DNA of 64,000 nucleotides, taken from Apostichopus japonicus (Eukaryota; Echinodermata; Holothuroidea; Aspidochirotida; Stichopodidae). The stretch spans positions 22,594,398 through 22,658,397 of the forward strand of contig NC_092577.1 of the NCBI RefSeq assembly GCF_037975245.1, given 5' to 3'. This document shows positions 6,188-56,336 of this stretch, piece after piece; the stretch's first letter is position 1; each line of letters opens with the position of its first letter. The position numbers and the translations under genes were made by a program. Under the pieces are notes generated by a model. It did not search any database. It had not been told where the DNA came from and saw nothing but the letters and a program-made list of their open reading frames with translations.

Positions 6188-6355
6188 ATGTTTTAGTGGG
6201 GGGGGGGGGGGGTTGGGCGTTTTGTCTCTGCAGGTCGGCGGGCGTATGTTTTTTTGGCTCGCTAGACCTGAGTTTCGTTTGTCAGAATGGGATGGTTCGG
6301 TAGTGCCGTTTGGCCGTGACGTTTTGTATCCCGCATGGCGGGTCACGTAAAAAGC

Positions 6356-6660
6356 ACAAATGTGAAATGATCGTTTTTCATTCAAAGCAGAACATGATAT
6401 GTTAATCTTAAAGTAAATTGTATTTACAGTACAATGTCAACACCAGACAACAGTATCATGACTCACACCTCAAACTAAGATGATATAGGTTCATTCAATC
6501 ACAACAACTAAATAGCGTCACACCAAAATAGTAAAAGTACGTTACGTATAGGAAAAAATGTCAAGTGTCAACGTTTTGTTTTACACATTAAATTTCACTT
6601 ATTACGCCTCAAAATAACATCAACCAGCTGATATGTTCGTGACATCCACGTAACAATCCA
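6356..6660. other. intergenic, AT-rich, no gene seen
   Basis: Lies between the LINE 3' end and the stop codon of the PC4-like gene. It probably contains the 3' UTR of that gene on the minus strand; no clear polyadenylation signal or other feature was found. Confidence 0.4.
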
Positions 6661-15110: not shown

Positions 15111-18100
15111 TTATGTAAGCTCATTTTTGAAATACATTTCATAAATAAGATTAATCATTTTCTTCACGGTGTTATGAAACATAATATTTAGGTTGGCATT
15201 AAAATTATTAAGTTGGCTAGCACACCGGCTTTTCCAAGTAACATATTTAGAAATGTTCAGAATAAAGTAGAATCCCTTCTTTGCATTTATTAGAAGAACC
15301 ACTTCCAAGCAATGTTATTTATATGGATAATTTTAGTGACTTCAGAGAATGTTGACTTTACAACAATTGACAAATAGGTAAGTCATAGTTTCATTGGTAG
15401 CTTTACAAAATGTGCATGAAGGCGAATCTAATATTTTAAATTTGAATGAACTAACATTGGTATATAAAATATTGTGCATTATCTGCAAGTCAATGTCGGC
15501 ATCATAAAAGCTTTATGGAGGTTTGTAAATATTTGTCCATCTATTATTAAAACAAATGTCACCATAAACCTTTCTCCATTGTAATCCACCAATTGGTGTG
15601 CAGTGAAGCTTAGTTCGAAGTAGGAGAGTGGCTTTTTTGCAGGAAATATCACACGCATTGATAGTGTCGGCGCCGTTAACAAAAGTAATAATACACGCAA
15701 CTTCCGGCTGTCAGGACACAACTTTGTCTGAAGAATAAATATCGACTAGCCACTGTTCAGGGTAAGGCATCAATTATAGTGTTGATGTAACCCTCCACGT
15801 CGTTGCACGAAATCGGATTATCGGGGTCAGTTAAAGAGATGCATTCATGCACTGCTGCAGCCGTTAATTGAGCCGGGATAATCTCATACATTAGATCGCT
15901 TACTCTACTGATCCCACCATCAATAAAGCAACGATTAAAAAGAGTTGTGCCATTGGCGTCACGAATGAGGGGATTATGGAACAAGGGTTGGAATAAAATA
16001 TCCTCTCTAGTTAAAGGCTCACAGAAGTGGCCGTTGGTAATTTTCTTCCAGGCGAACAACATTTCGCGATAAAAGGGCCGAATGGATGAAAGTGATTTGC
16101 TGTTAGGAATGACCTGGAAGATACTCACATCAAGGTGCATGTTTTCGTAGTGATTCAAACATAAATATTTAATGTACCATTTAACATTTTACTTATGAAT
16201 TTAATTGTAATAGCATCCCGAACAATTTCTATATCTCTTAAATTAAGACCTCCTTTCTCATGCGGGTAACAATAGGGTGGAATATTTTATGGGGCTCTTC
16301 TTGCCGCGCCAAATAAAATCGAAAATACTTTCACGCATAGTCGTAATAACCCAGTCTAAACAAGTCTACAAATAAATATTGAATTAATAACAATCGATTT
16401 ACCTCTGGTAGTAATACACTGAACTTATTCACTTTATCTTTCCAATAAACAGTTTCTGCCAACACTCTGTTGTTGCCAATGGCAACCCCAAGAACTTCAA
16501 TATAGTCGTTTCTGACGGGGAAGTCGAAGTCATGACAATTAATTTAGGAATTCCCAAAAACCAAAAGCTCGGTTTTGTCTAGGTTGCACTTGGAACCAGA
16601 TGCATGTTGATAGAGTCTAAGCACTATAAGTATAGAATAAATGATGGTAATGCTGGACACAAAGAAAGTTGTGTCATCGGCATGCTGAAACACTTTCACC
16701 TCGACGTCACTAAATTTGATACCTGAAATAAGTGGACAATTCGTAATCGCTTCATGTAATGGCTCGGCGCTTTGAAGGTATAGGATTGCCCGTAACGGGC
16801 AACCCTGGCGGACTCCTCTCTGAATAGAAAACTCTTTAGAAATGAAGCCATTGTACTTTAGAGGTTTTGTTAATAATAATAATAAATACTACTAACCTCT
16901 AATGATAGTTCTGTCTAGTTTAACCCTCCTTGGATGGGTCCAGGGAACTTGATCTGCCAGTTCCAAGATAGATCCGTATAATAAAATCCTTAAAATGAAT
17001 AAATGGATAACTGAATCCGAAGCGCTAGTAATTAGGTGGGTTGCAATTGCTACATCCCACACATAAAATTTCCGGTGGATTCCCGAAGATTATACAAAGA
17101 ATATACGAATTTATTTAGCCAGCTATCGCTGTGGTGTAGGAGATGGTATATATCGTAGTGCTAAAATAATATTACGGCTTAGAGAACAACCTTCGCTGAC
17201 CGATTCACTGAACGAAGTGGCTGATAAAATATGTCGCTCTACACTTGAACTTATGACCCCAAAACTTTCTCTCGTTGGACATTGGTCCTCTTTGTTCAAG
17301 TTTACTATAAATGGGAGTGGAGATAAGCAAGAAAGTTGGGCGACAGAATGTCTATAAACAAAATAAGTAGGCTGTTCCACTTTGCGAGAGGGAATATATA
17401 GGCTCGCTTGCAGTGCGGTCACTACAGTACTTAATGCAAATATAAATGTTGTTATATAAAATCTTTACCCACATACGAAAATTAGGGCCGAAACCCATTT
17501 TTTGGCAGAACGTCATATATATAGGTGTGGTCGACCCTATCAAATGCTTCATATTGGTCGATTTTAAGCGCTGAGTATATTTCAATTATTTTCATTCACA
17601 TTGCTAATAATATTCTGCATAATTAAAACATTCTTAGTAATATCACGACCTGGAATGCAGCAAGTTCGATCATTTGAAACTATATTATGGATGACTTTCG
17701 AAACTCTATTTGCTAATGACTTGCTAATAATTTTATGGTCAGTATTTAATAAACAAATCGGTCTGCAATCATTAAGGCATCTAAGAATCATTTTTCTTAG
17801 GAATTAAAGTTAAAACACCAGTTTTCATAGAAGAACAAAGTTCATTATTCTGAAATATTTCGATAACAAGTTTTGCGAAAATGTCGGTGAATTCACGCCA
17901 AAATACTTTCAAGAATTGTACAGCCATCAAGTCCTGGGGTCTTATTTGGTTCCATTGGGAAGAGGGAGCTCTTCAATTCTTCGAGGGATAGGTCTTTATC
18001 GCACAGATCGTCTTGTGGAAGGGATTTTGAAAGATTATTGATTAATTCCTCTCTATAACTTCCATCAGTAGCTTCGCTTGAGTAGAGTTCTGTGTAGTAT

Positions 18101-18171
18101 TTTGTCTGTTCCATGATAATTTCCTGTTGGTCGCTAATAATGTCGCCATCGTTGGTTATTAATTGACGCAT
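15111..18171 (-). pseudogene. Tx1-like ORF2: RT and C-terminal domain (copy 1)
   Basis: In minus order: EELKSSLFPMEPNKTPGLDG (RT entry, about 17930), CLNDCRPICLLNTDHKIISKSLANR, DRTCCIPGRDITKNV, QKMGFGPNF-WVKILYNN, then after the 567-bp insertion the QRGVRQGCP motif (about 16820) and FQHADDTTFF (about 16680). The C-terminal part has AWKKITNGHFCEPLTREDILFQPLFHNP (about 16030) and DLMYEIIPAQLTAAAVHECI. These align motif by motif with the copy at 51042-56243. Frames are broken repeatedly. Confidence 0.8.
16860..17426. mobile_element. 567-bp insertion in the LINE, 6-bp target duplication GTACTT
   Basis: GTACTT flanks both sides (16854-16859, 17427-17432), and LINE coding (ICIKY / YNGFISKEF) is continuous across it. 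On the minus strand it starts TGTAGTGACCG and ends AACCTCTA. The start resembles an LTR (TGTAGTG, as in the BEL element at 43.8-50.9 kb), but the other end is not CA. Family unresolved; a solo LTR of another family is possible. Confidence 0.65.
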
Positions 18172-18499
18172 TACTTTTCGTTTTTCTCCACAGTTAAGAA
18201 GAATTTAGTTGACTTCTCGCCTTCTTCGTACCACTGGATTTTAGATCTGGGATCAGCACCGTTTATTTCGTTATTCATTAATGTGTTCATTTCATTTTCA
18301 AGACATTTAAGGAGAGTGCAGTGATAGTCCGTGAATTTCTCTGCTTTGTATTTCTCCTAATCGATTTGCTTTGTTAATTTCTTCTTTGTTCTTTGCTGTA
18401 GCTTACGTTTTATTTTGCTGTATCTAATAGAGGTGATTTTAATTCTCTCTTTGAGGTAATCATACCACTTCCGAAAATTAATTTCATAGTAAATATTAT

Positions 18500-18996
18500 G
18501 AATTTTCTCCTCGTTAATAAGATTACGGATTTAAAAACAATAGCTTTCATCGAGGAGTAATGAGTTATTTAAAATCCAATAACCAGGACCCCTGGGTATA
18601 AATGCGAGATCTAGATGAAGTTCTACAATGTCATGATCGGAAAAGGGATACTTTGTATGTTGACAATTAATAACATTATGGATAATACGTTTTGACATTA
18701 AAAATCTGTCAATCCTGGACGAACGGCGTCCGTCGACAGTATCTGTAGACCAGGAGAAATTAGTTGTCAGGATTGCGTTGCCTCCAGATATCGATGAGTT
18801 GATGTTCTATCATGAGGTCGTTGAGTGGTTTGCGGGAGACATCGGGAAGTGGTTTCACCGGGTATCTGTCTTTATATACCTTTCAAATATTGTTAAAATC
18901 ACCGGTTATAATGAGTGGTGTTTTTTTTATGAGCAATTTTCTCTTTCAAGTCTACGAAGAACGACTTTCTCTCCAGAGGAATATTTGGTGCATAAA
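18500..18996 (-). pseudogene. Tx1-like ORF2 endonuclease, C-terminal half (copy 1)
   Basis: Minus-strand reading starts NVYAPNIPLERKSFFVDLKEK directly at the edge of the 4.1-kb insertion. It continues past SRIDRF and the SDHD-type motif (about 18620-18720) to a WILNNSLLL-type segment near 18560. It is the second half of the endonuclease that begins at 23485. Confidence 0.75.
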
Positions 18997-19488
18997 CGTT
19001 TGTAGCACCCCTAATTTTTTGGTAAATTAGGAAGTACTAGAATTTAGATTTCCCCTTCCCTGTGATAGGTTCCCCCTACAAATTCTCGGGTTCTCTAGGA
19101 GTTCAATGGCCTGTCACTTCATTGCAGGAAGTTGTAATGACTAAATCTGTATTCTTGGAATGACATTGCTTTGTCCCCCAAGTGTACCAGAGAGTAAAAC
19201 CACCATAACCCATTAGTGAGCTAAGCTGTCCCCAGAGTGAGAGAGACCTTCTGCAAACAGGTGACCCTCTGTTCACCTGTTTGTGTATGAACTTGTTCTC
19301 TGGGACTACGTCACTAAGTTGTTTACACCTGTTGTCTTAGTGGTTATTTGAGGAATGTTGGTGTTTTCCGGTACTGAGTAGGCCGATCAGCTGGTTCATT
19401 TATCTCCTTATTTGGGCTGGGCAGGAAGTTGTATTGTCTTAGGGTACTGTCCCCTGGCTCTATAAGAAGGCCAGTTTACCAGCGATCT

Positions 19489-20332
19489 GTGCCACTCACT
19501 CGACAGCCCTCAGCCGTCGTTAGGATGTCGGAGACATCATCATTACAAATTACTCTTTAATTTCTAAACAGGTATGAACCACTTTGTATTTTTCAGAAGT
19601 AAGCTTCTTAAGTTTAATAGTAATGTTCAGTTACTCTGTGATGGCTCCAAGCACACAGATATGTTTTCTATCTAATTTAATTAAAGTCATACCATCGATT
19701 GATATACTTTACCATCCGTTGTGTAATTTAGTATAACTATGTGTTTCATTGATAATGATATATAGCAAATGTTGTTTATCCCATTATGATTATTTCTGTA
19801 TTGTGTACCCTATAAGTTACACTAAGCCTATACATGATATGCTACATGTATACTACATTTTACCCTTTTGTGGAATCCATATTAGCTGATGTATGTTCTG
19901 TACAGTAGCTCCCTTGGTGACAGTCCTTGTCAGAGGTTGACCCTAAATAGTTTTGCTACTATTTGTTGGTACATATGATATGTTTATGAGAGACTTATCA
20001 TGTAGGGTATATATTGTGTTATGTTATTTTAGTATTTAGTTGTCTATTAGGAACATGCTAGTAATTGGGTTAGGGCAATTAGCACTTGACTGAGACTTAC
20101 TGCATTGGTGTCCGTCATTGACTGCCACGTCGGCTAGATGTGGGGCTTATTATTTAGCCTTAATGATTAGAGTGTACTTGTTGTAGAATTGTCCCATATT
20201 TTATTTGGCACTGAGCCTATTGTATTGTTTATTTCGGTATGTAAGTTGTGCCACTCACTCGACAGCCCTCAGCCGTCGTTAGGATGTCGGAGACATCATC
20301 ATTAGAAATTACTCTTTAATTTCTAAACAGGT
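19489..20332 (+). repeat. 84-bp direct duplication in the left LTR-like half
   Basis: The segment starting GTGCCACTCACTCGACAG and ending TTTCTAAACAG occurs at 19489-19571 and 20248-20330, differing at one or two bases. The first copy is followed by GTATGA, a good splice-donor sequence; the second is followed by GTCCTTGG. It lies just downstream of the TATA box, where the transcribed leader (R region) would be. Confidence 0.75.
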
Positions 20333-20843
20333 CCTTGGTTTGGGTGGGCGTGTCTAAACGTCCTGGTCTTAAGATGCCCCCTCCCCACCAGGCCATGATG
20401 TTTCCCGGACTCGAAAGACGGCCGAACGGGTCTAGAGAGGGAGTGAGCCCCAGCCCCCAGCTATATAGTGGTCCATTCCGAAATTGGATTAATTGTACTT
20501 TTATTGTTTAATTATGTTGACAACTAGTGACAGTTGTTGTTTAATACCGTTGTTAACCTCCATTTGTTATTTTCTTTCTTCATGTCGTAGTTATGAATAT
20601 ATACCGCATAACTAAACATACGCTTTTGTATTATTCTGTTTGTTTGTATGTTGACTCAGACGAGCCAGTAGTTACAGCAGTAGTAAGGTAGGGTCCTTAT
20701 ACGTCACGAGGCGCATTGTTGATATGTGCGGTTACGGACATCGAGTATCTAGGTGCAGGTAGTTGACCTCATTACAGCCGACGAACCCCCGCTTCCCTAA
20801 AGGCTAATGTTCCCTGGATGGGAGCGATCAACCTGGGGTTATA

Positions 20844-20861
20844 TGGCGCCCAACGTGGGGC
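20844..20861 (+). other. primer-binding site for tRNA-Lys (18 nt)
   Basis: TGGCGCCCAACGTGGGGC is complementary to the 3' end of tRNA-Lys1,2 (CCA included), the primer used by several retrovirus and LTR-element groups. It is the best single evidence that the surrounding insertion is LTR-related. Confidence 0.75.
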
Positions 20862-21503
20862 TGTAATTATTAGAAAGGTAATAAGTGTAATTATTAGAAA
20901 GGTAAAGGTAGTAAATTTGTAACGCTACTCCACGACACCTACGATCAGGGAACAGCAGGGTTTGGGGCGTCTACTATGAACCTTGTGGCCAGCTAGTATA
21001 GGGACGGAAACTTAATGGAAAACATACACAAATCAGTAGGCAGAAACATTTATATTAGAGTAACGACGGGCTTCTGTATTCAATAGGCATAGCAACCACT
21101 CAAAAACACATATAATCAAGGAGCAGTGCTGATCTACCTTTAACTATACGGTTTGTATACATTATAAACACAGATAATAACAACTACAACTCGGTTTGTG
21201 TGGGTACAAATGCATTAGAACATTCCCACAACCTCAAACAAGGCAAATACGATAAACTCTCCCTCTTGTAGCCCGTTACGACTAACGAGACTATAAAGTT
21301 AACAAATACTACACTCGAACATATCCGCTGTCATTCCGATCCAGCGTCTTAGACCGGTCGGGCAACCATCGGGTGGAGTAGCCCCTTCCCTATGACAGTA
21401 TGTACCAGCGTCTATAGGGACGACCGGCGTCTATAAGTATTGACCAGCGTCTAATTGCCCAAGGCCATCAACAGTATGTGTTTAACAAGGTACACACAGT
21501 AAA

Positions 21504-22834
21504 ACCTGGATGGAGCAAGAGTCCAAACAGAATTCAAAATACTTGTAAGTTGTAACAAACTGTCTTCTCACACGAGTGTGTATTACTGCAGGTCTTGAGT
21601 GAATGAGTCACTAATTTGTGGGGGAACTAATCAACCCATTTAAAATAAAGTAATTAATAAGAGTAAATATTCATAATCATTAGATGATAAAATACAATAA
21701 GCATAAAACTATTGTCAAGGACAATGAGGCCAACATACCGTCTAGATACATAATAAACAATAATAATTATAGCATATAAAGTGTAACTTCTCAAGGTCAC
21801 AGGGTCTAGCATGCCAAAGAGCAGGAATTAAATTACTAATTGTCATAAAGAAAGGGGCGTGTGCACCTACCGCATGATAGCATATAACATAGTAACATTC
21901 AAATAGGTGTCAACCCATCAAAGGTAAAATAATTCCAACTAGCAATTATAACCAATATGACCAATCTAACATATTAAGTAATTTAGCCTAAATCACCTCA
22001 CAGTCCCTTTAACATGGTGAAGGATTAAATAATATGCTAACCCCTTTTGAGTTTGCATATTATCAAGGACGTTACCATAATAACCAGCAACAATTAATAG
22101 TAATAGTCATGTAATATAAAAGTGAAATATATGTTAGGGGTGGCTGGTAATAATTAAATAAGCAAAGAACCTTTCTAGTATTCTAGTGACAACACAGTCC
22201 CCTTATTGTAGTAAGCAAAACCCATAATTACCCCAACATGAATGCAGCACTCTAGGATTATAGGAGCAATACTTTACATATAAATAGCAAAGAAATAAAC
22301 TTGTGTAAATAACCACAGTCACAGCTGTTACCATGGTAACAAGGTGAATCAGGTAAACAACACCCATGGAGATACATAGGAAGCATAAGTTAGCACATTT
22401 AACGGGCATCACTACTAGCATATAACCACATATAAGCATATTGGGCCTGCTGAAGCCCTAAGCTAACAACAGGTAAAGTATCTGACTGCCATGTCTTCAA
22501 ACTAATAATCTTGGGATGATTACTATCAAAATAAGTAATGAGAAAGCAACATGCAATCTGGGTAGGCACAATCCCTTTAACACAGCTGTTAAAATAGTTG
22601 CAAATGACAACAATTACTATGAGAGGATTCTTGGGAGAAATCCTCAATAGTTAACATGGCAATCAAATAAATTACAATAGTACATATATGCTAGGGAAGC
22701 AACTTAACAATTATAGAAAAAGAATTCTTACCTGGATGGAGCAAGCGTCCAAACAGAATTCAAAATACTTGTAAGTTGTAACAAACTGTCTTCTCACACG
22801 AGTGTGTATTACTGCAGGTCTTGAGTGAATGAGT
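21504..22834 (-). repeat. ~105-bp direct duplication in the right half
   Basis: The block between CATTCACTCAAGACCTGCAG and GCTCCATCCAG (minus reading) occurs at 22834-22730 and 21608-21504. On the minus strand the first copy is followed by GTAAGA, again a strong splice donor; the second by GTTTTACTG. This mirrors the arrangement of the left half on the other strand. Confidence 0.75.
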
Positions 22835-23142
22835 GATCAACCCTATCCAATGGTGATTAGCCCTATCCAAATTGGTGGGAACTCCGAAATAGACAAACTC
22901 CCAGCCCTGAGCGGGTGAAACAATTGCTAAGGGATACATACAAGGGTAATAAATTGTGTCAAGTGGTGATCCCTAAATGGGGGTATAAGTGGACAAGCTG
23001 TCCCTCAATTAATCAGATGTAGGAGATCTGGGAGGAAGAAGGTTGTCGAAATAGGGCATAACTTTCCAGTTCAAGTCATGAACTTAAGGGGGCTTAAAGC
23101 AATAGGGGAGCATAGGGTGAAAGTAGTAGCTTGCTACACGTT

Positions 23143-23485
23143 AATAATAGTTAATAGTAAATAGTTAATTTCCTGGTTGTCGACAATGATGTCAATTTGT
23201 GCAAAACGGCGGTTTTTTTCGCTGGTATTGTTAACGATATTGATACCTGAGTCTTTTTTGATGAGACATGAAACACCTCTTCTATTATTGAGGGTATAAA
23301 AGGATAGTTTTGAAACTTATTTCACCGTTCCATTGTTTTGTAGCACTCTCATGATGAACGTCATCCCACAATGTTTCCTGCAGTAAAATAATGTCATATT
23401 TCCTCTTGGTAACCAAATTTAAAAGAGTATCTCTCTTGTCCGAATTCCTGAAGCCATTACAGTTTAAGGTGGCTAAGAACAGCAT
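23143..23485 (-). pseudogene. Tx1-like ORF2 endonuclease, N-terminal half (copy 1)
   Basis: Starts MLFLATLNCNGFRNSDKRDTL, with the APE opening motif LNCNG, then LLQETLWD (catalytic Glu) and, in a second frame, RRGVSCLIKKDSGINIV. It is cut at 23142 by the 4.1-kb insertion and resumes at 18996. Confidence 0.8.
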
Positions 23486-23691
23486 GATCCTGATGAATAA
23501 TTGTGGTATAATTACTGTGAATGTGTCTTTTTCGAGGTGAATTGTCTTGCACTTTTGAGGTTCGGCGTTGTGCTGTTCTTTCGACTATGTTTTAGTTGCA
23601 CTCTCGTGAACCCGTCGTCGCTTGACGCTGTTTTTTTTATCCATCCGGGATGATCTGACGAAGTTTCATTGTTCTGTGCAGTTTGTGGTCG

Positions 23692-24662
23692 TCACGGTAA
23701 TTTTGTTGATTTAGATGGCTGTCCTGATGAGTTTGGCTTTGTCGATTTTTCCTTCTCATCTTTCGGCTTCGTTGTTGGATTGTTATGGGATTGTTGTGTG
23801 TTTTTTCCTTTGGAGTTCCTTGGTGCCGGAGTGCTGGGTGCATGATCCACGGCGATTGCTTTCATGGCTTGCTGATGTGGGGGTGCAGTGTCAGGTGGTT
23901 GATTGGGTGCGGCCACTGCTTGTTGTTCGCGTGTGGTTTGGGTGTCCGGTGCGGTGTCACCCTGGTTTTCAGGCACTGGTGCGGTGTCACTTTCGTTTTC
24001 GACACACAGGAAGCTTTGTGTCCATATCTGTTGCATCTGAAGCACTTGACCTGCGGGCACCGGCTTTCAGAATGGCCTTGTGGCCCGCATCCTCTGCATG
24101 TGTACTGGGGGCAGTCTCTCATAATATGCTCAGCACTCAAACATCGGTTACACACCTTTGCCTGTCCGTTGTTTGAATCTCAGGTGTATGGCGTCACTAG
24201 GTCCTCCCACAGTTATCGCGTAGAGTAGGCTTTTTGCTCCATTAGGCATTTCAAGTCTTACAAACCGTATTCCGTTTTCTATTGATGGAAAATCCTTGTA
24301 AGTGATTACGCGTCCAGTCAGTCTTTAGAATATATCCAAACTCTACCAATCTTTGCGATAGTTCGTGGTCGTCGACCCATGAAGGCACTCCAAACAGGCT
24401 CACGGTAACAATAGACTTAGTCACTCCTGTAACATTGCATAGGTCGTCTTTAATTTTCATTCCAATTTCTTGTAATAGTTCAGCATCGTTTTGATTTTTC
24501 AGTTATGATCCATTGCCCCGATGGTTTTACACATCCTATAATATTTCCCATCCCAATTTTATTTGCCATTGCGGCAAGTACTTCTTTCGGTTCATATGTA
24601 TTGTCAATAACACGTAAACTATTGTCTTTCAGAATCTTTCCGTTTGGTTTCGCATAACCCAT
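23692..24662 (-). pseudogene. Tx1-like ORF1, RNA-binding protein with three zinc knuckles (copy 1)
   Basis: Begins MGYAKPNGKILKDNSLRVI. An RRM-like region follows (GVTKSIVTVSLFGVPSWVDD-HELSQRLVEFG). Three CCHC knuckles follow: CNRCLSAEHIMRDC, CRGCGPQGHSESRC and CFRCNRYGHKASC. The tail is Pro/Thr/Gln-rich. The frame is interrupted (near 24460-24480 and 24160-24250). It would bind LINE RNA in a ribonucleoprotein with ORF2. It matches ORF1 of the copies at 34 kb and 51 kb domain for domain. Confidence 0.8.
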
Positions 24663-24894: not shown

Positions 24895-25484
24895 TCAAAG
24901 AATGAGTCCCACTTTCTCAACCGGGGGCGTTAACACATCATAACTAATAAGGTGTTTTCCTCGACCCCAAACGAAATCCACAACATTCTTATGATAAACA
25001 TCACAAACCCAATCAGGTACACATACAACGGTTGCCATGTAAGTAAAACGTGACGCCACCATTGCGTTGACAACAAGCGTTTTGCCCTTGAAGGACAATT
25101 TGCGCCCCTTCCAGCGCTTCAGAACCGTTCCGCGCTTAGCACTAAGTTCTTCCCAATTTTCTCTTTCGACAATGCGGTCGTCATTCCCTACCGCAACCCC
25201 AAGTACCGTTAGGTAATCAGATCTCACGGGGAAGGGATAAGTCATTTTGAGACTCTTAGATTTGCCAATTAGAAGCAACTCAGTTTTGTCGTAATTACAT
25301 TTAGATCCGGATGGTCTTTCATAATTTTTGATAGTTTGCAAAACGTGATGAATGCTCTCGGTATTGGCTAGCATAAAAGTGGTATCGTCAGCATGCTGAA
25401 ACATTCGAGGCCCAAAATGGAGACATTTGATACCACAAATATGGGTGTTCTTAGAAATTGCTTCACGAACGGTTCTGCACTAAT
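24895..25484 (-). pseudogene. Tx1-like RT fragment (copy A, distal part)
   Basis: Reads SAEPFVKQFL, FQHADDTTFMLANTESIHHV (catalytic HADD), GSKCNYDKTELLLIGKS, TVLGVAVGNDDRIVERENWEEL and SFKGKTLVVNAMVASRFTYMATVVCVPDWV. It is the continuation of the RT piece at 29880-30000: that piece ends ...GCHISALLY and this one starts (LS)AEPF, adjacent in intact copies. Everything between them is later insertion. Confidence 0.8.
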
Positions 25485-29879: not shown

Positions 29880-30000
29880 TCTAATTTCAGCTAATTACAT
29901 ACAACAGTGCCGATATGTGGCACCCTTGCCTCACACTTCTTTTGATTTCAAAAATATCAGACAAGTAACCGTTTTGCTAAATATGACTGTTGATATCCGT
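29880..30000 (-). pseudogene. 5'-truncated Tx1-like RT start (copy A), joined to a 5S gene
   Basis: Minus translation includes QNGYLSDIFEIKRSVRQGC (broken by one stop upstream), the GVRQGC region of the RT. It begins directly after the first 27 bases of a minus-strand 5S gene (30001-30027). So copy A is a 5'-truncated insertion into a 5S gene. Confidence 0.8.
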
Positions 30001-30027
30001 GTAATTGAACGTGATATGGCTGTAGAC
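30001..30027 (-). pseudogene. 5S rRNA gene, first 27 nt, cut by a LINE
   Basis: Minus strand starts GTCTACAGCCATATCACG and ends near CAATTAC, where LINE copy A begins. The rest of this gene is not recognisable nearby. It carries TTCAAT where most array members have TTGACT. Confidence 0.8.
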
Positions 30028-30102: not shown

Positions 30103-30197
30103 AAGCCTACGGCACCCAGTATTCCCAGGCGGTCACCCATCCAAGTACTGACTGCGCTCTACGTTGCTTGACTTCGGTGACCGGACGAGAACCGGTA
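30103..30197 (-). pseudogene. 5S rRNA gene, 3' three-quarters, after LINE insertion
   Basis: Minus strand reads TACCGGTTCTCGTCCGGTCA to GGTGCCGTAGGCTTTT, i.e. 5S positions about 27-121, immediately after the A-tail of LINE copy 3. The internal promoter (A box and C box, positions about 50-97) is intact, followed by a T run. A 75-bp spacer separates it from the next 5S start at 30027. Confidence 0.85.
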
Positions 30198-30239
30198 TTT
30201 TTTTCCTCTTTTATTAAGTCAGCCCACTGGCTGACCCAT

Positions 30240-30425
30240 TGTCAACATTATTTACAAGGGTATGTTTGTTCAAAATGAAAACTTAATTAGAGGTAAATTA
30301 ACTATAACATGAAATAATAATTTCCTTAACAATTACTAATGCACCAATTGTCAACATTATTTACAAGGTTATGTTTGTTCAAACATAACATGAAATAATA
30401 ATTACCTTAACAATTACTAATGTTT
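30240..30425 (-). repeat. tandem duplication in the LINE 3' UTR (~105-bp period)
   Basis: TCAACATTATTTACAAGG with downstream ATGTTTGTTCAAA and AACATGAAATAATAATT..CCTTAACAATTACTAATG occurs at 30240-30343 and again at 30348-30425, with an internal deletion in the second. Confidence 0.8.
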
Positions 30426-30772
30426 AAGTTATCAGAAAACTAATTTATTAATCACCACAGACATAAAATTAAATGCAAAAGACAACAATGTCTAAGGCAA
30501 AGTGAAAAGACCAGACCCTGCTTACGTCAACACGTACTCTATTAAAATTAACCCCTTTCCAGATGGTAAGTATAGCTGTTCGATTCTTTCTTAGAGAGCA
30601 CAATATTGTTTTGGGTAAATATATTATAAAACCGTCAGAGCTTGTTTTTGTGGTAGTACACATCGAAAAGTAAGCGAATTTTCTTTTTCAGTACATTGTG
30701 AAAAACTTTTTCAATATTACATCGATAGTTATTATTGAGGCGAGATATTCTACAATTCCAAATTGTATACTT

Positions 30773-33700
30773 TTATATATTGAAGATGATGTCACACAAA
30801 ATTCCTACAATACAGTTGTTTTTACGGCCAAGACCCACAAGGGACAACCCCTTCCATTCATCTAAATTAAGTACCGGATGTAAAGTATTCAACTTATTAA
30901 CCAAAAAGTGCCATAAATTTTCCACTTCAGAACACTCAATAAAAAGATGAATAGTACTTTCGTGCGTGGTTTTGCAAAAGGTGCAGTAAGGAGAATCGGC
31001 TAATCCAAACTTGTACAATTTGTCGTTAGTGTAAAGAATATTATGTGATACTTTGAAGTCGATATCGGCGTCAAAGAAACACATTGGAGAACGATATATG
31101 TTACTCCATCTATTAGAAAAATCAAGACTGGGAAAATGCTGCTTCCAGTATTCTTCGCCCTTGGGCGATGTGTTAAGATTGTCACGCAAAAGGCGTGAAG
31201 CTATTCTGCACGAAACTGAGGAGGCATCTATAATGTTTTTGCCATTTTGAAATTTTACTGTAGGAATATAGTAAATTTGCGTAGATACAATTGCATCAGA
31301 AGAAAATATATCACCTAACCAGTCAGAGGGGAAGGCGTGGAGAATGACATCGATATAATTCTGAACATCGATTACTGTAAGGGGATTATCAGGATTAGCA
31401 AGCTCAATGCACTCATGCACGGCCTTGGCTGGCAGAGAAGCGGGTATAATCTCATACATCAGATCATGTCTTCTCTGGTCTCTGGTAGCCACAAACGGCC
31501 TTGAATTAGCCGATCCCATGCTAACATGAGTTCACAGTAATACGGGCTTAGCTTATGAACAGACTTGCGGTTAGGAGTAATTTGAAAGATACCACGCCCA
31601 AGGCTCATATCTTCATACACATTCAAAAAATACAAGATGAATTTTTTGTCATTTAATATTAATGTTTAATTCTAAGAGCATCTCTTGTTAGTTCAATGTC
31701 GCTCAAACTGAATCCCCCTCTGTCGATCGGTAAAAGCAACTTAAGATACTTAATAGAAGGTTTTTACCTCTCCAGATAAAATCGACTACACTCTGACGTA
31801 ATGTGGTGATAACCCAATCAGGGACTGGTAAAACAGTGGTCAAATATACTAAGCGAGTTACGATGAGCGAATTTATAGTGAGAGATTTACCCTTAAAAGA
31901 TAATTTTCTACCTTTCCAGGTATTTAATAATTTACGGCAGGAGGTAACTTTTTTTCTCCCAATTTTCTTTTTCGATTGACTTTTTGGTGGGATTACCATG
32001 GCTGCACCCAATGCAAAGTAATTCAGTTTAATCAATATTACAACTAGAGCCAGAAGCACGTTCATACAATTTAATGATGTTAAAAATAGAATAAATACTT
32101 GTGATACTAGACACGAAAAAGGTAGTGTCGTCCGCATGCTGAAAATTTTGGCTTCGATTTCACAAAATTTAATACCATGAATATATGGACAATTAATTAT
32201 AGCTTCATTAAATGGCTTGGCACAGAGAACATAGAGCATGGCTGAGAGTGGACAGCCCTGCCGAACTCCCCTTTTGACAGGGAAGGGATCGGAAATATAA
32301 CCATTGTGCTTGATTCGGCCATCGATATTGGTATAAAACAGTTTGATCCATTTTAGGAGCTTACGACCAAAACCCAGTTTTTCAGCGACTTCGAAGAGGT
32401 AGTTATGGTCAACGCTGTGAAAGGCTTTATATTGGTCAATTTGAAGAATAAAACCTGGTTTATTATATGAATTTACATACTCAATTACATTTTGCATAGT
32501 AAGCAAGTTTTCAGAAATATCTATTCCTGGAATACAACACGTTTGATCTTCTGAAATAATATTCTTACTTATACTTGTGATACGTTTGGCGAGAGCTTTG
32601 GCAATCATTTAAACTACGAAGATCTCCTTTCTTGGGTATAAGGGTAAGTATACTTATTTTCATGGATTCACAGAGTTCGTTGTCATGGAATGATGTCTCA
32701 ATGAGTGTAGTAAAAATATCGATAAAATCCCGCCAAAACACTGTAAAATTCAGCAGTTATTCCATCTAGTCCTGGAATTTTGTTCGGTTCCATTGCTAAC
32801 AGAGCGGCTTTCAACTCATCTAATGAAATATTTGCTTCACATGCTTCAACGTCCATTGGCGAGAGAAATCTTTTTAGTTCACAAAGTATCTGATCCCGCG
32901 ATTTGTTGTCGGTTTCTTCGGCTTGGTAGAGATTTGTATAGAACTTTACTTGTTCTTTCATAATTTCGTGTTGATCGGTGATGATCAAGCTCTGGTCAGT
33001 TAGTAGTTGTTTCATTACCTTCTTTTTTCGCCTGGATTTTTCAAGATTAAAGAAAAACTTTCTTGATTTTTCACCCTCCTCGTGCCACTGAATTTTAGAC
33101 CTGAGGAAGGTTCCTTGTAATTCTCTTAATGAAAGTTGGTTCGACTCATCTTCTAGGTTTTTAAGATGGGTACAGTCGTAATCGGAGAATTTTGTAGCTT
33201 TGTATTTCTCGTAGTCAATTTGTTTTGTCAGCTTCTTGTTGGCCCGACGTAGTGATTTCTGTTTTCTTTTGCTAAATTTTATCGTTGCATCTTTAAGTCT
33301 TTTTTGGAGGCCGTCGTACCATGATAAGAAATTATTTTAAAAATCAACGTGGAGTTTTGCTTCTCCAAGTAATTCACGAATTGATGTAAGGTAATCATCA
33401 TCATAAAGCAGGGAATTGTTAAAAATCCAACAACCTTGTCCACGTGGTTGACTAGAGAGATCGAGACTAATTACAACGAAATCGTGGTCTGACCGTGGGT
33501 ATTTGGCTATATTGCTGTTAGAAACACAATTTACGATGGTTTCAGAGGTAAGTATTCTGTCTATCCTTGATGATGACAGGCCATTCAAAGTATTCCGGAT
33601 ACATGTGAAGTTAGCTTTGCGAGGGTTTCTCTTCCTCCATATGTCAACGAGATGATATTTTACCATGATGTCATTAACAGGTTTACATTGTCGATTTTAG

Positions 33701-34104
33701 TTCATACTGCAGATTTTGATAGAAAACTCTTCTTTCCATCTGGTTGTTCGGAGCATATATTCCAATTACAGATAGAGGACGCTCATCAATGATAAAGTCT
33801 ATTCGAATAAAACGACAATTATCGTTTGTTATGCAGTTTGTAATATCAATATCACTATTTTTCCTGAACAGAACGGTTACTCCTTTTCTTTCTGGTGGGT
33901 ACAAAAGGAAGAGTACATTCTGCCACCCCATTCGACTAAAGCAACTTTTGGGATTTCTTCGTCCCAGAAGGTTTCAACTAGAACTGTTATGTCATACCTT
34001 TTAGATTTTACAAGGCTTAAGAGTTCTCTCCTTTTTTCAGCATTCCGTAATCCATTACAGTTCAGTGTGGTCAAGAGGAACATTGTTACGAGAAATGGAG
34101 CCAT
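30773..34104 (-). pseudogene. Tx1-like ORF2 (copy 3): endonuclease, RT, C-terminal domain
   Basis: Starts MAPFLVTMFLLTTLNCNGLRN (34104). APE motifs: LNCNGL, ETFWD, VIGIYAPNN, SRIDRILTS, SDHDFVVISL. RT: ALLAMEPNKIPGLDG, DQTCCIPGIDISENL, QIDQYKAFHSVDHNYLF, KRGVRQGCPLSAMLYVL and FQHADDTTFF (about 32150). C-terminal domain: DLMYEIIPASLPAKAVHECIEL, then a CCHC motif YCTFCKTTHESTIHLFIEC (about 30925-30980). Frames shift in the APE, near RT catalysis and after the thumb. ORF2 nicks DNA and copies the LINE RNA in place. Confidence 0.85.
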
Positions 34105-34694
34105 GGTATCGTCTTTTCCTTGGGTTTGTACATCCTTGCTAACCGGAGATTTGGCGATATATTCATTCTGCGTGATATGGTCTGTATCTTTTGTTTTAGC
34201 ATTGTTTCAAGGAAAGCTTCTTCATCACTACAGTCAGTTCGCTTTGTTCCTGTTTTTCCTGGCTTCTGATCTGTTTTTGCTTTATTTTTGACACTTGACT
34301 TGTCATTAGTCTCCATAGTTTTGGTTTCGGCTGGGCCCTTTGTTGCCTTAGTAGTTGTTTCTGTGTCCGTTGCATTAGAACCGGCCGGTACTGACAATTT
34401 TATGTTTGTTGGTGTCGGTGTTGCTGACGGTGCTGGTGCTGGTGTCGGTTCTGGTGTACCGTCCATAGGTTCACATTCAGAATGAGAGGCTGTGCTTTCT
34501 GCCTCACATAAAAAACTCTTATGTCCAAAATGGTTGCATATGTAACACTTGACGCCTGGGCAGCGTCTCTCTGTGTGTCCTTGTGTGGCACATTCCCGAC
34601 AGGTATATTGTGGGCAGTCTCTCATAATATGGTGATTACTTAAGCATTTGTTGCACACTTTGGTTTGTCCGTTATGTTTTAGTCTGATGTGCTC
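34086..34694 (-). pseudogene. Tx1-like ORF1 (copy 3), 5'-truncated
   Basis: Begins at EHIRLKHNGQTKV. Three CCHC knuckles follow (CNKCLSNHHIMRDC, CRECATQGHTERRC, CYICNHFGHKSFLC), then a Pro/Thr-rich tail and a basic end. It overlaps the ORF2 start by 19 bp, so ORF2 would be reached by reinitiation or similar. The RRM-like N-terminal half is missing. Confidence 0.8.
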
Positions 34695-34695
34695 G

Positions 34696-34709
34696 CGATT
34701 TCAAAATCG
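34696..34709. other. 14-bp palindrome at the flip point of the 5S array
   Basis: CGATTTCAAAATCG is a near-perfect palindrome of the 5S spacer element CGATTTTAAAATCG found at 42655, 42985 and 43417. Left of it everything 5S-related is on the minus strand; right of it, on the plus strand. Confidence 0.7.
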
Positions 34710-34877
34710 AATATATTAATAAATAACTACTTTGTTTTTATGTATTAGAATTTTATACATATATATATAAAATAAAGATTAACATAATATATATTAAATC
34801 CATTCATGTATAATATATATATTAAACCACTCATCATAAACTAGCAAACAACTAGCCTACATTTCACCTCTTGTAAT

Positions 34878-34997
34878 GTCTACGGCCACATCACGATGAC
34901 TATACCGGTTCTCGTCCGATCACCGAAGTCAAGCAACGTAGAGCGCAGTCAGTACCTGGATGGGTGACCGCCTGGGAATACTGGGTGCCGTAGACTT
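34878..34997 (+). rRNA. 5S ribosomal RNA gene 1
   Basis: 120-nt 5S gene with full internal control region (AAGTCAAGCAACGTA about position 48; GGATGGGTGACCGCCT about position 80) and T-run terminator. Variant with CACATCACGATGAC near the 5' end and GTAGAC at the 3' end. One base differs in the C-box region (ACCTGG for ACTTGG). Confidence 0.9.
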
Positions 34998-35072
34998 TTA
35001 TTTTCCTAATTGATAACACTATGTTGTCACGACGATGAGAAATTGAAATGCCCTACATTGACCTCTTCTTAT

Positions 35073-43184: not shown

Positions 43185-43254
43185 TTCATAATTGATAACA
43201 CTATGTTGCCACGACGATGAGAAATTGAAATGGCCTACATCGACCTCTTCTTAT

Positions 43255-50219: not shown

Positions 50220-50561
50220 GTCATTGGTTAAGGTATCGTATCAAAGTAACGACATAATGTCTCTTATAAGATTCCTTAGTGATGGCCCTTATAGGCTTCC
50301 GTAGAGAATGTTCAAGAAGCAGCACTCGCGCACTGCTTTCACTGAAACTGTAGCCCCGTTATACGAGAACTGTAACTAACCTAGATATTGTGCGCACTAC
50401 ATATACAGTAGATAGCTTTGCCTACTTCCGCTATAGCCTATCCACATTTCAATCAGTAGCGAGGGGGTCACAAAAAGGTTCGTAATCATAACGTATTGTT
50501 AACATATAAAATAAACAGTCCATCGTAAGGTTTCGTAAACACATAACCAAGGTATTTACCA

Positions 50562-51002: not shown

Positions 51003-51041
51003 GTCTACGACCATATCACGTTCAATATACCGGTTCTCGTC
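51003..51041 (+). pseudogene. 5S rRNA gene, 5' part before the LINE
   Basis: GTCTACGACCATATCACG to CCGGTTCTCGTC, i.e. 5S positions 1-39. The last 12 bases are the left copy of the target duplication. It carries TTCAAT in place of TTGACT, as does the interrupted gene at 30001-30027. Confidence 0.9.
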
Positions 51042-51157
51042 GTTCTCGTGTTTGTTCGTATTTTTCACCCCTTTCCTTCCGTCCTTTTTCGGAATCGTGG
51101 CCATCGGCTAATGTGTTTGTGGTCAGCAGACATTTTAGTTGTTCTATTTATGATGTG

Positions 51158-52174
51158 TACGTATCACCGATAATAAATTTGAAGCCCGTGATGTCCTTCG
51201 CGCGCTATCTGATGACATTGGAAAAGAAAACATTCCCGGTTGTTTGAATTCCAACGGGCAATGGATCGTAATACTTAAGGAAACAACAGATGTAGAGCTT
51301 CTACAGGAGACTGGCGTACTGATTGATGGTGTAGGATACGAGGTACGAGGGGTAACAAGGAACCTACTCACTGTCAGCTTGTTTGGGGTACCAGTTTTCA
51401 TAGATGACAATGAACTGTCAGATAAGCTTAGAGAATTTGGGTGCATACTCAAGAGCGCATGGACCCACAAAACCTGTGAGGACTTTCCCAATGTAGAGAA
51501 CGGGATAAGATATATTAGGTTAGAACTCCCGTCCAACGCAAAGAGCCTTCCGTACTCCATTTTCATATCTGGAGTCCATCTTCGATTGAAGCATAACGGA
51601 CAATCCCGGGTATGCAACATTTGCCTTAGCTCGGACCATATCATGAGAGAGTGTAAGCAATATACTTGTAAAGAATGCGGTATGCAGGGTCACAGCGAAA
51701 GTAAATGCCCGCGGGTGAAATGTTACAGGTGCCAGGAATTCGGGCACAAAAGCTTCGACTGCCCTACTACTCCCTACACCCAAAGAGGACAACAATACCT
51801 CAGAAATGGAATCAAATGATTCGGCCTGCACAGAACAAGATAATACAACAATCCAAGATATCCCAGACAACCCCCAGCCACGTGAAACGATCGAAACAGA
51901 CATACAGACCCCAACAGAAAACGAAAACAAACCAAGCCGAAAGATTAATAGTTCCCAACCGAAACCGAGAAATAATGAAACCACAGACCCAGCGCCACAG
52001 AACACAGAGAAAGAAGACAACTCAACCTCGCAGAAACGGAACCTCTCTAGTGATGACGATTGGACTGTCCAAACGAGGAAAATGAAAAACAACAAAAAGA
52101 AAGCTGACCCTACACCCAACCTAGCCAAAGCGCGTAATTTTCAACCTCGCCAGCCATCACTAGAACAGCATTAA
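51158..52174 (+). pseudogene. Tx1-like ORF1 (copy 4): RRM-like plus three zinc knuckles
   Basis: Reads ITDNKFEARDVLRALSDDI, NSNGQWIVILKE, GVTRNLLTVSLFGVPVFIDD (RRM-like), then CNICLSSDHIMREC, CKECGMQGHSESKC and CYRCQEFGHKSFDC. A one-base frame change near 51780 leads to a Thr/Pro/Glu-rich tail ending PNLAKARNFQPRQPSLEQH. No in-frame ATG is seen before 51158; a stop precedes it, so the extreme N-terminus is lost or frameshifted. An ORF1 of about 330 residues would be typical. It coats the LINE RNA. Confidence 0.85.
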
Positions 52175-52176
52175 CA

Positions 52177-55100
52177 ATGTATTTTTCACTCACCGTTACA
52201 ATGTTTTTACTCGCCTGCCTAAATTGCAACGGACTGATCAATCAAGATCAAAGAAGAGGACTATTCTCTGACGTTGTTAAAAACAGATTTGACCTTGTTT
52301 TATTACCAGAAACCTTTTGGGACCAGTCAATTCACGACCAGGCCAAACTTGAATGGGATGGCGATATTTTATCTTCCTTCTATTCTCCCGCGAGACGAAG
52401 GGGAACGAGTTGCTTAATTAGGAAGGGTAGCGATATCGATGTACACCACTTCGAACCGGATATAAACGGTCGCTTTTTAAAATGAAGTATTACTGTGGAT
52501 GGACAGTCTTTTACAGTTTTTAACATCTATATGCTCCAAACACGCCGAGCGAACGAAAACAATTCCTAGAAGATATTTCAGGAAAACTCCGCAACGTGCC
52601 CGAACCAATTATTCTAGCGGGAGACTTCAATACCGTTCTTAATACTTACGTGGATAAATAGCCAACAACACCTAACCCGGACTCTTCTCGAAAATCTCTG
52701 AAACTTATTATGTCGGAATACGAGCTTGTCGATATTTGGAGAGAGCGCCACCCTTCTTTAATCCAATTTACAAGGACATCCAGCAACCACAAAACCGCTT
52801 CCAGGATTGATAGATTTCTTTTAAAGAAACAGCTAGTTCGCTACGTGAAATCATGCTCTATATCTCGCTATCCCGATTCAGATCACGACATGGTTGAACT
52901 TAAACTTGACTTTACCCTTTTACCTAGGGGCCCCGGTGTATGGATTTTGAATAACTCCATACTTGAGGACACATCCTTCTGTTCGGAAATAAGAGATCTC
53001 ATCGAGCGAGAAAAACAGAAGACTTGTTACGACAATAATTTCCTCCAGTGGTATGACGTTTTGAAAGATTCACTAAAAAGGACTGCAATGAAATTTACCA
53101 AGGTTTAAAAGCAGACTCTCGCGTACACATCAAAGAAAACTAAGGAAAGAAATCAACCACGAAAGGGCGAAAGCGCCAAAATATCAAGACTACGACACTA
53201 CAAGGCTACGGAATATAGAATTTCAGCTAGACGAGACGACCCGCGCAGATATCAGAGGAGCCGCGCTTAGATCGAGAATCAAGTGGTTCGGAGAAGGAGA
53301 ACGTTCGTCCAAATTTTTCCTCAATTTGGAAAAATCGCGACAAAGCAAAAAAGTAATGGCGCCAGATTCTCACCGACGAGGGCGCGATCATTAACGATCA
53401 AGACGATATTATCCACGAACAGGCCAGATTTTAGAAAACGCTTTACACCGCAGAACCGTCAGTGAGTATGCAGAGGGAAGTATTACTTAGGCAGCTTTCT
53501 AAAACGTTGTCCGAACCTGATTCTCAGTCATGTGAGGGGGACATTTCGGCTACAGAACTCCAAAAGTCAATTTTTGACATGGAGTCGAGTAAAAGCCCTG
53601 GTTTAGACGGACTCACTGTTCAGTTTTATAAACAATTTTGGGATGTATTGGGGAGATTTTTCTGAAACTCACGAAAGAAATTTATAAAACAAATGAAATG
53701 TCTAATTCAATGAAAACAGGTCTAATTACTTTCATACCCAAGAGAGGGGATTTGAGAAAACTTAAGAATTGGAGGCCGATTAGTCTTTTCAACACGGACT
53801 ATAAAATAATCACAAAGGCTCTGGCCAATAGAATCTCTAGGGTGATCAATTGCCTTGTCTCTAGTGACCAGACCTGTTGTGTTCCCGGCAGAGATATTGC
53901 CGACAATGTTCTGGCTATGAGAAATATTATTAATTATGTCAACGAAAACAAACAAGAGGCCTATGTTCTTAAAATTGATCAATTAAAAGCCTTCGATCGA
54001 GTAAACCATGAATATCTTATTAATGTTTTACAAAGGATGGGTTTCGGTACTAATTTCATTAACTGGGTTAAAATCCTTTACAACGATATTCAAGGTTGTA
54101 TTAAACACAATGGTTATATTTCAGATACTTTTCATATTCAGAGAGGGGTTCGCCAGGGTTGTCCAATTTCTGCTATTTTATATGTACTATCTGCTGAACC
54201 ATTTCATGACGCTATTTACAAAAGTAAGAGTATAATTGGTATTGATTTTATGCATCATGAAGCTAAAATATTTCAACATGCAGATGATACCACTTTCTTT
54301 CTGTCTGATACTTCTAGTGTTAAGTCCGTACAAAATGTTATTAACCTGTACGAGGGCGCCTCTGGCTCTAAGTGTAATGTAGAGAAAACCGAGTTACTAG
54401 TGCTCGGAAAGGGCAAAGTACGAAAAGACGAGTTCAATTTTCCGATAAGGAACGATTTTATACAAGTGCTTGGTGTTTGTGTCGGCAATGATAAGGATGC
54501 TCTTGAAAGAGAAAACTGGAAAACCAAGACTGCCTCTTGTTGCAATCTTCTCAAGAGGTGGAAAGGGCGGAACCTCTCCTTTAAAGGTAGAGCTCTTGTT
54601 GTAAATTCTCTAGTTGTCTCAAGACTGACATATCTTGCTACTATTATTCCGGTCCCTAAATGGGTAGGAGACTCTTTGAAAGAAAGTGTTATCGAATTTA
54701 TGTGGGGAGGTGAGAAACCTGGCATATCCTACAATGTTCTTCTTCAACCTGTAGACAAAGGTGGCCTTAACCTTTGTGACATTTTTCGGAAAAGAGACGC
54801 TTTACGTATGAAGTACATCTGTAAACTACTTAGTATCAACAGTATCAATCCGATGTTGAAAAATTTAATGCTCTATTTTCTGAATCATTATGAATATATG
54901 AAACTAGGTTTACACGTATTTCGTATTTGACCTCATAGCAATTCTATGAGAAAACTTTGACCGTATTATTATGAGTTGTTGAGTGCCTGGAAAAAGCTAA
55001 CGTATCAAAAGTTATGCCCTCCAGTGAACAGGGATGAAATTCTTATGCAACCGCTGTTCCATAATCCATTTATTGTTAATGAACCTGACGAAACCCTCTT

Positions 55101-56046
55101 TATCAGAGATTTCATTGAAGGTGGTATTATTTTTGTAGGCGATCTTATGTACGAAATGATCCCAAGACGGCTTCCCGCGGAGGGTATCCATGAAGCCATT
55201 ACTATGGCCAACCCAAATTGTAAACTTAATATTGATGACGTACATGATTACGTCACATCTATTTTGAAGGCTTTCCCAAAAGATTGGCTTGAACAAATCT
55301 ATTCGGGCGATAAAACGGTTAGTCAAAATGACAATGAGTCACTTTCACTCACTCTCTCTTGTGGTGATACCACGCTAGATGCGTCCACCGTTAGTGTCAG
55401 GAATGCAACTGATCTCCTAAGGGAGGCCGTCTCTACAATTCCAAAAGGCGAAATCCACTGGAAACACGTTTTTAACGATATCTCTTTTGAACATAGGTGG
55501 ACCATTACCAACAAAGGTCTAAAAGCTTTTCACGATAGTGACCTCGATTTCCGTCTTCTTGATAATATTTTATTCTGTAACGATAAGTTGTATCTTTTTA
55601 AGCTAGTTGACTCTCCTTTATGTAAGAACCATAATGAAACTGTCTTGCATCTTTTTGTCCATTGCAAAACCGTAAATCTTCTCTGGAGAGGTATAATCAA
55701 GAAGCTTCAGAAAATCTGTAAAATCAACAACAATGATAAATGGAGGCAAATAACTCTCTTAGGTATGGATCTCAATCATAGGAGGCATGAGACAATTTCG
55801 ATTGATTTTATTCTAAACACTTTCCAAAAAGTTGTTTGGACCACTCGTCTTAGCCTCCTGAACGGGGAAAAACACATTAATATTCAAAACTTCTTTCATT
55901 ATTCACTACGAAAGAAAATCGATTTCTTATTCGACTATTTTGTAAAGAAAAAAGAAATTTCTACATTTTGGGAGTTCTTTACTCAAGGTGACGTCATTCT
56001 CAATCCTCTTGAAGATGGCTCCTACGAGTACAAGTTTGACACTTAA
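52177..56046 (+). pseudogene. Tx1-like ORF2 (copy 4): APE, RT, C-terminal domain
   Basis: Starts 2 bp after ORF1 ends (MYFSLTVTMFLLACLNCNG). APE motifs: LNCNG, PETFWD (Q of QET changed to P), FNIYAPNT, AGDFNT, SRIDRFLLK, SDHDMVELKL. RT: DMESSKSPGLDGLTVQFY, WRPISLFNTDYKIITKALANR, DQTCCVPGRDIADNV, KIDQLKAFDRVNHEYL, QRGVRQGCPISAILYVL, FQHADDTTFFL (about 54273). C-terminal: LSAWKKL, EILMQPLFHNPF, DLMYEMIPRRLPAEGIHEAI. The CCHC is reduced here (SPLCKNHNETVLHLFVHC lacks the second Cys seen in copy 3). Breaks near 52485, 52660, 53108-53460, 53640 and 54930. Confidence 0.88.
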
Positions 56047-56243
56047 TTTTCTCTTGCCTTCCCCATTCTAGGATTACTCCCTTATCGTTGTGCATGATTG
56101 TATTGATAGTGTTGTATTATTGTTATAGTTTTATATATATTCTCTTTCTTTATTTCATGTAACCATGTTAATATCTGTACATTCAATCGGAGAAGCAGTG
56201 GGTTCTTCCGTCAATAAAAAAAAACCAAAAACCAAAAAAAACC

Positions 56244-56336
56244 CCGGTTCTCGTCCGATCACCGAAGTCAAGCAACGTAGAGCGCAGCCAGTACTTGGAT
56301 GGGTGACCGCCTGGGAATACTAAGTGCCGTAGGCTT
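56244..56336 (+). pseudogene. 5S rRNA gene, 3' part after the LINE
   Basis: Runs from CCGGTTCTCGTCC (position 28) to GTGCCGTAGGCTTTT with intact internal control elements and terminator. Changes: CAGCCAGT for CAGTCAGT, and ATACTAAGTG near the end. It might still bind TFIIIA, but it would start within LINE sequence. Confidence 0.9.

Follow-up and report, generated by a model that had tools for sequence, protein, structure and literature searches.

A LINE insertion with both boundaries in a 5S rRNA gene of the sea cucumber Apostichopus japonicus, and related elements meeting 5S at the same site

When a long interspersed nuclear element (LINE) lies inside a 5S rRNA gene, was the gene its target or a chance landing place? 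This question is raised by a 64,000-nucleotide stretch of Apostichopus japonicus DNA (contig NC_092577.1, positions 22,594,398 to 22,658,397 of the forward strand; hereafter the window), in which a LINE designated element A divides a 5S rRNA gene. In the initial annotation, A was described as a full-length, Tx1-like LINE flanked by a 12-bp duplication of 5S sequence. According to the analysis described here, A is very probably a decayed copy that retains both boundaries and belongs to a 5S-site-specific LINE of sea cucumbers, which has an endonuclease of the apurinic/apyrimidinic endonuclease (APE) type and inserts in the orientation of the gene.

The interrupted gene is split into positions 1–39 on the 5' side of A and positions 28–119 on the 3' side (Table 1). 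The 12-bp sequence CCGGTTCTCGTC, corresponding to 5S positions 28–39, is present exactly at 51030–51041 and at 56244–56255, and the identity stops there. Thus, the claim that both ends are exact holds. About 0.003 chance copies of this 12-mer are expected in the window, whereas ten exact copies were found, all of them within 5S matches; because of this low expectation, a chance origin of the duplicated 12-mer was rejected. When the left flank of A, including the first copy of this target-site duplication (TSD), was fused to the right flank without the second copy, the joined sequence aligned to an uninterrupted 5S unit of the window with an unbroken junction (251 bp, 91.6%, one gap). The joined flanks also align, over shorter spans, to other uninterrupted 5S copies in the window. 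Ten Rfam 5S matches are present, including the right half of the gene holding A and a partial gene behind a second LINE (element B, below), and 5S occupies about 1.9% of the window. A tandem 5S array with a period of 195 bp is located at 34.9–35.4 kb. These results confirm A as a real LINE insertion within a 5S rRNA gene. The nine bases at the start of A (GTTCTCGTG) match the last nine of the TSD (GTTCTCGTC) at eight of nine positions (51033–51050, where GTTCTCGTC is directly followed by GTTCTCGTG), and a target-derived 5' end or a template jump is possible.

Between the 5S halves, the element is 5,202 bp long with two recognised open reading frames (ORFs), in agreement with the 5.2-kb element with ORF1 and ORF2 that had been annotated. 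ORF1 carries CCHC zinc knuckles (zf-CCHC, 5.9e-08), which are typical of Tx1/Mutsu-type LINEs. ORF2 contains a reverse transcriptase (RT; RVT_1, 7.7e-35) and, upstream of it, an APE-type endonuclease recognised by motifs; the same arrangement is seen in P0001, a related protein of 1,290 residues with an open frame. The C-terminal zinc region matches zf-RVT at 8.2e-04, below the curated cut-off. The endonuclease and RT motifs looked for, whose choice was taken from L1, are all present (8/8); seven are the same as in P0001, and one has a changed neighbour (PETFW for QETFW). The A-rich tail of the element carries CC interruptions. The term 'full-length' applies to the boundaries of A but not to its coding capacity. 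ORF1 changes frame close to its C-terminus and does not begin with an in-frame ATG, and ORF2 is readable only as five segments, with four frame changes and five in-frame stops. Because of this state of ORF2, the present copy looks dead, despite the retained endonuclease and RT motifs.

The proposal of an invertebrate LINE that lands at a defined site in 5S is supported: in the window, two other members of the RT clade of A also join 5S there. One is element B, a related LINE with RT and zf-RVT matches, which is 34–51% alike to A over pieces of ORF2 and 64% alike over one piece of ORF1. The tail of B, ending in AATAAAAGAGGAAAAAA, runs into ATACCGGTTCTCGTC, which is 5S from position 28 or 25; ATA fits 5S too, and three bases are therefore ambiguous. 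The 3' end of B is located at the same 5S position as that of A within 3 nt. The other, element CE, is represented by two RT pieces. The nearest relative of both is the protein P0011 (82% over 38 residues and 76% over 187 residues), in which the two pieces are adjacent (up to residue 566, then 571–760). They therefore appear to be one 5'-truncated element, split by about 4.4 kb of later DNA. The border between CE and 5S is inexact, as the first RT match starts a few residues inside 5S. Both same-clade elements with a preserved 3' end in the window (A and B) end at 5S. The junctions at both ends of A, at the 3' end of B and at the 5' end of CE lie at 5S, either within positions 24–28 or with the 28–39 duplication. 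Assuming that junctions are spread uniformly over the 195-bp unit, a further two would lie no more than 3 nt from the first with a probability of about 0.0013; this is a rough value, computed after seeing the data.

The interrupted genes also differ in sequence from the others. CAAT is present at 5S positions 21–24 in both interrupted 5' halves (the host of A, 51003–51041, and the host of CE, 30004–30027, minus strand), whereas GACT is present in the eight copies with an uninterrupted 5' half (CAAT in 2/2 against 0/8, p 0.022). Interrupted copies may retain an older 5S type, or the target type may differ.

The joined ORF2 of A is 73% alike to P0001. It is 96% and 94% alike to two Apostichopus japonicus 'pol-like' proteins, over 43% and 57% of the query, respectively, and near 50% alike to Holothuria leucospilota proteins. 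RT trees were constructed with 59 and 52 rows. The former contains 53 of 178 proteins, picked for spread, and CE is represented there by its larger piece alone (win_E). In the latter, P0023, P0030, P0044, P0053, P0081, P0082, P0083, P0084, P0085 and P0129 were dropped, CE replaced E, and human L1 and two other LINEs of the window were added. In both trees A, B, CE and a fourth window element, D, fall in one 18-row clade with support of 100/100. The other 14 rows are two A. japonicus proteins, three H. leucospilota proteins, P0001 and eight further proteins; the label 'holothurian' rests on the five A. japonicus and H. leucospilota rows. CE and P0011 branch first, the remaining 16 rows being supported at 91/72 and 90/79. 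The next branches are A with P0001, and a 12-row group holding B and D (85/71 and 86/50). Support for the early branching order is only fair. Within the clade, A, B and CE represent separate lineages, and their spread over its early branches is most simply explained if their common ancestor already targeted 5S.

The position of the clade among LINEs was also considered. In the 52-row tree the two other window LINEs, which were chosen as the outgroup and which we take to be CR1/Jockey-like, part from the other 50 rows at 100/99, and human L1 and a plant RT lie outside the remaining 48 rows (81/82). The clade is on the side of human L1, the plant RT and a Coccomyxa LINE-1. P0083–P0085 lie outside it in the 59-row tree. 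The P0001 row has 26% of its columns filled in the 52-row tree, and the 59-row tree with the full P0001 row agrees. Long-branch warnings were given among the outer rows in both trees, and neither includes an R1 or Jockey reference. P0001 carries PF03372, PF00078 and PF13966, and no PF00075 (RNase H). Its endonuclease part is similar to L1 endonucleases of solved structure (5e-17 and weaker). The best match among solved structures is human LINE-1 ORF2p, whose APE endonuclease and RT align along residues 12–871 of P0001. Human LINE-1, which is not known to be aimed at one gene, branches outside the clade of A, B and CE. The initial annotation had called for an RT tree with Tx1, Mutsu, Keno, Dewa and L1 members. 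The trees place the clade on the L1 side, away from the other window LINEs, but hold no row labelled Tx1, Mutsu, Keno or Dewa by which to place it further. No protein of these names is found among 91 matches, the best 120 of 431 and the best 120 of 275; most rows are nameless, so unlabelled ones may be present. The last of these searches was directed at named Tx1 or fish sequences and yielded none. A passage of PMC3747384 places Tx1 within the L1 clade. For A, a Tx1-like or Mutsu-group identity is a plausible candidate assignment.

The junctions of A, B and CE fit target-primed reverse transcription. In the proposed scheme, the ORF2 endonuclease would nick the bottom strand between 5S positions 27 and 28, and the 3' end freed at the nick would serve as the primer for copying the A-rich tail by reverse transcription. 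A cut in the top strand 12 nt downstream (after position 39), followed by fill-in, would yield the 12-bp duplication. The enzyme and the order of the nicks are presumed here, as are any role of a 3' stem-loop and the activity of intact siblings of A. The 3' stem-loop of B has a folding energy of -15.2 kcal/mol (z -4.55). In A, a stem-loop just before AATAAA has the same AGUG loop with other stem letters, and does not surpass shuffled sequences (z -1.31 over 59 nt, -0.32 over 79 nt). With two examples, of which one is weak, the shared AGUG stem-loop cannot be called a conserved RT recognition signal.

Element F, a more distant relative, offers a contrast. It lies outside the 18-row clade in both RT trees. 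Its presumed 3' end (6112–6359), which appears to belong to F from its position behind the last ORF, recurs at 8803–9041/9045 and 12602–12695 (12598–12697), in DNA unrelated to 5S. Direct repeats of 15 bp (8803–9041) and 9 bp (12602–12695) are found at these copies, both non-5S. In a random control with boundaries movable by 25 bases, 15 was reached in 0/150 pairs and at least 9 in 4/150; thus the repeat at the 8803 copy is solid and that at the 12602 copy is weak. The 8803 copy adjoins a minisatellite. F seems to use sites other than 5S, as read from the presumed 3'-end copies and not from the long copy of F.

These results bear on the possible origins of the 5S junctions. A general, non-specific L1-like LINE could have hit 5S by chance in a 5S array, and the ten Rfam 5S matches in the window and the presumed copies of the related F at unrelated sites fit such an account. 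However, the 5S junctions of three separate lineages lie no more than about 3 nt apart although 5S makes up less than 2% of the window, and F, the relative that seems to have other sites, falls outside the clade; chance hits are therefore improbable. Less credible still is the joining of 5S halves and LINEs by rearrangement within the array. The 5' end of B is fused to the spacer of an array in the opposite orientation, and several elements are nested, as rearrangement would produce, but A has an exact 12-bp TSD, and its complementary 5S halves align unbroken to the empty unit. On this evidence rearrangement was rejected as the origin of A. We give even less credence to an element that carries 5S-derived 3' sequence of its own, so that 5S would follow it anywhere. 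The same 5S stretch does lie behind both A and B, but in both cases array spacer follows it, and at A the 5S gene, with the TSD, continues on the 5' side too; this explanation was rejected for these reasons. A 5S-derived short interspersed nuclear element (SINE) was also considered. Such SINEs have a 5S head and a LINE tail (compare PMC3747384), whereas here the LINE precedes the 5S body inside the array, and the candidate was dropped.

Several observations weigh against insertion by 5S-specific elements. Both ends are kept in one copy only (A), and for each of B and CE a single 5S junction is clear. No TSD was seen for CE on its one readable side, where the border is uncertain. The 3' ends of CE, D and an ORF1 fragment at 29.5 kb were not found in the window, and on the 5' side D and the ORF1 fragment join other LINE pieces, not 5S. 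The fusion of the 5' end of B to the spacer of an oppositely oriented array indicates that the region is rearranged. All the junctions come from this single rearranged, 5S-rich window, and local array effects could enrich 5S junctions. Finally, no 5S is present in the 4,972 bp of L001, a distant relative with uncertain ends.

L001 (1–4972) is the one locus that was found in a scan of genome contigs for relatives. It is an animal-type LINE of a related group (39% alike over its best segment). Its contig has been assigned to a Flavobacteriaceae metagenome-assembled genome (WFXA01000126.1), and the sequence is probably contamination of a bacterial genome record. Scans of viral contigs with P0001, alignment A1 and a junction pattern gave no relative. 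As to the other members of the clade in the window, CE, the ORF1 fragment and D form a nest of same-orientation LINE pieces together with a CR1-like LINE (15120–30003, minus strand); the pieces adjoin each other, with no 5S match between them.

Table 1. Coordinates of element A, its 5S target and related elements in the window
Feature	Position	Strand	Basis
Element A, non-LTR (long terminal repeat) retrotransposon, both boundaries, 5,202 bp	51042..56243	+	
5S rRNA gene, 5' half (positions 1-39), closing with first TSD copy	51003..51041	+	
TSD copy 1, CCGGTTCTCGTC (5S 28-39)	51030..51041	+	
5' untranslated region (UTR) of A, about 110 bp, starts GTTCTCGTG; end approximate (ORF1 start damaged)	51042..51153	+	
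ORF1 of A, main frame; CCHC zinc knuckles; lacks in-frame ATG at start	51154..51816	+	
Open frame with C-terminal part of ORF1; different frame, overlaps main ORF1 frame	51719..52174	+	
ORF2 of A: APE-type endonuclease, RT, C-terminal zinc region; 4 frame changes, 5 stops	52177..56046	+	
3' UTR of A, about 200 bp, closing with AATAAA and A-rich tail	56047..56243	+	
Possible 3' stem-loop of A, AGUG loop, z -1.31 (not better than shuffles)	56188..56210	+	
TSD copy 2	56244..56255	+	
5S rRNA gene, 3' half (positions 28-119), opening with second TSD copy	56244..56336	+	
Uninterrupted 5S unit, empty-site paralogue of the joined flanks of A	34811..35060	+	alignment
Element B, related LINE, broken; 5' truncation within ORF1 (approximate upper end, about 34.70 kb); 3' end abuts 5S	30199..34700	-	
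3' stem-loop of B, AGUG loop, z -4.55	30215..30238	-	
5S from position 25/28, directly downstream of B, then array spacer and next 5S start	30103..30198	-	
5S positions 1-24, interrupted by element CE	30004..30027	-	
Element CE, 5' truncated; first RT piece, meeting 5S at position 24-27	29890..30003	-	
Element CE, presumed continuation of same RT beyond about 4.4 kb of other DNA	24902..25464	-	
Element D, same clade, interrupted by other DNA, 5' joined to CE; 3' end not found	15120..24660	-	
Element F (from RT on), more distant relative	4200..6359	+	

Among known systems, the nearest in habit is Mutsu, described in passages of PMC11202950 and PMC3706591 as a 5S-specific LINE of zebrafish, about 5.5 kb long with two ORFs. 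Like Mutsu, A is a LINE with two ORFs within a 5S rRNA gene; its length of 5.2 kb is similar, and its host is an echinoderm. By analogy, A would work like Mutsu, and it has the general make-up expected, but it is not filed as Mutsu here. According to parts of PMC4640811 and PMC3706591, Keno and Utopia target U2 snRNA genes and Dewa targets the tRNA-Leu spacer. Like A, they are LINEs aimed at multicopy small-RNA genes or spacers, although the targets differ, and Utopia has a restriction-like endonuclease, unlike the APE-type endonuclease of A. In Tribolium freemani, a passage of PMC11202950 reports Jockey-like LINEs of about 5 kb that occur regularly in 5S arrays and interrupt 5S-plus-satellite arrays. 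They resemble A in 5S-array residence and are set apart by their description as Jockey-like. Dada-5S elements of fish have the same 5S target (a passage of PMC8869645), but these are DNA transposons. No 5S-targeting LINE of an echinoderm was found in the titles and abstract beginnings listed by the literature searches, whose coverage leaves out most subscription journals and apparently Repbase, and so gives no proof of novelty. In the available parts of an echinoderm genome review (PMC3308324), '5S rRNA' occurs in the reference list only and retrotransposons are not mentioned; those of a bivalve transposon paper (PMC10294476) name Tx1 elements with no 5S target, and those of PMC5437419, PMC4110674, PMC12953832 and PMC11075544 hold nothing on the Mutsu site. 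As a 5S-targeting LINE, A would be an echinoderm member of a kind already known from zebrafish Mutsu.

How old the habit may be is a separate matter. We suggest, only tentatively, that the 5S target is an old property shared by a guild of sea-cucumber LINE lineages, derived either from an ancient, animal-wide Mutsu lineage or from an independent gain. That the elements are 5S-specific and gained this target independently of zebrafish Mutsu is a variant of the site-specific interpretation, and we regard it as possible though rather doubtful. Two points fit an independent gain. The distinct LINEs Keno and Utopia are reported in a passage of PMC4640811 to have arrived at one U2 site in parallel, and F, which shares this side of the tree, seems to have other target sites.

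Other mobile elements are located in and near the 5S repeats. A BEL/Pao-type LTR element (43804–50934, minus strand) with Peptidase_A17 and DUF5641 lies in 5S-array spacer; its terminal repeats of 375 bp are 99.2% alike, and it is probably young. A further LINE (39516–42278, minus strand), with RT and ALKBH8_N matches, adjoins the 5S cluster that starts near 42.37 kb, and its RT groups with a CR1-like LINE in the 52-row tree. Two 5S starts of 18 bases are cut off with spacer directly after them (43165–43190 and 43596–43621), and correspond to deleted 5S units. The ORF at 6664–7305 (minus strand) has a PC4 transcriptional coactivator domain (2.6e-15), and is the sole one among 20 scanned ORFs whose Pfam match looks unlike a mobile-element domain.

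How a reverse-transcribing element can be directed to a single multicopy gene is illustrated by site-specific LINEs, which also have interest as tools for gene insertion. Among the literature passages considered here, Mutsu is named solely from zebrafish. With a sea-cucumber clade that has an exact 12-bp site, an open full-length relative (P0001) and a more distant one, F, which seems to insert elsewhere, it becomes possible to investigate the age of the habit and the part of the endonuclease responsible for reading the site. If the 5S target is indeed an old shared property, competition for a single 5S nucleotide among several divergent LINE families would date back to before the split of their common ancestor.

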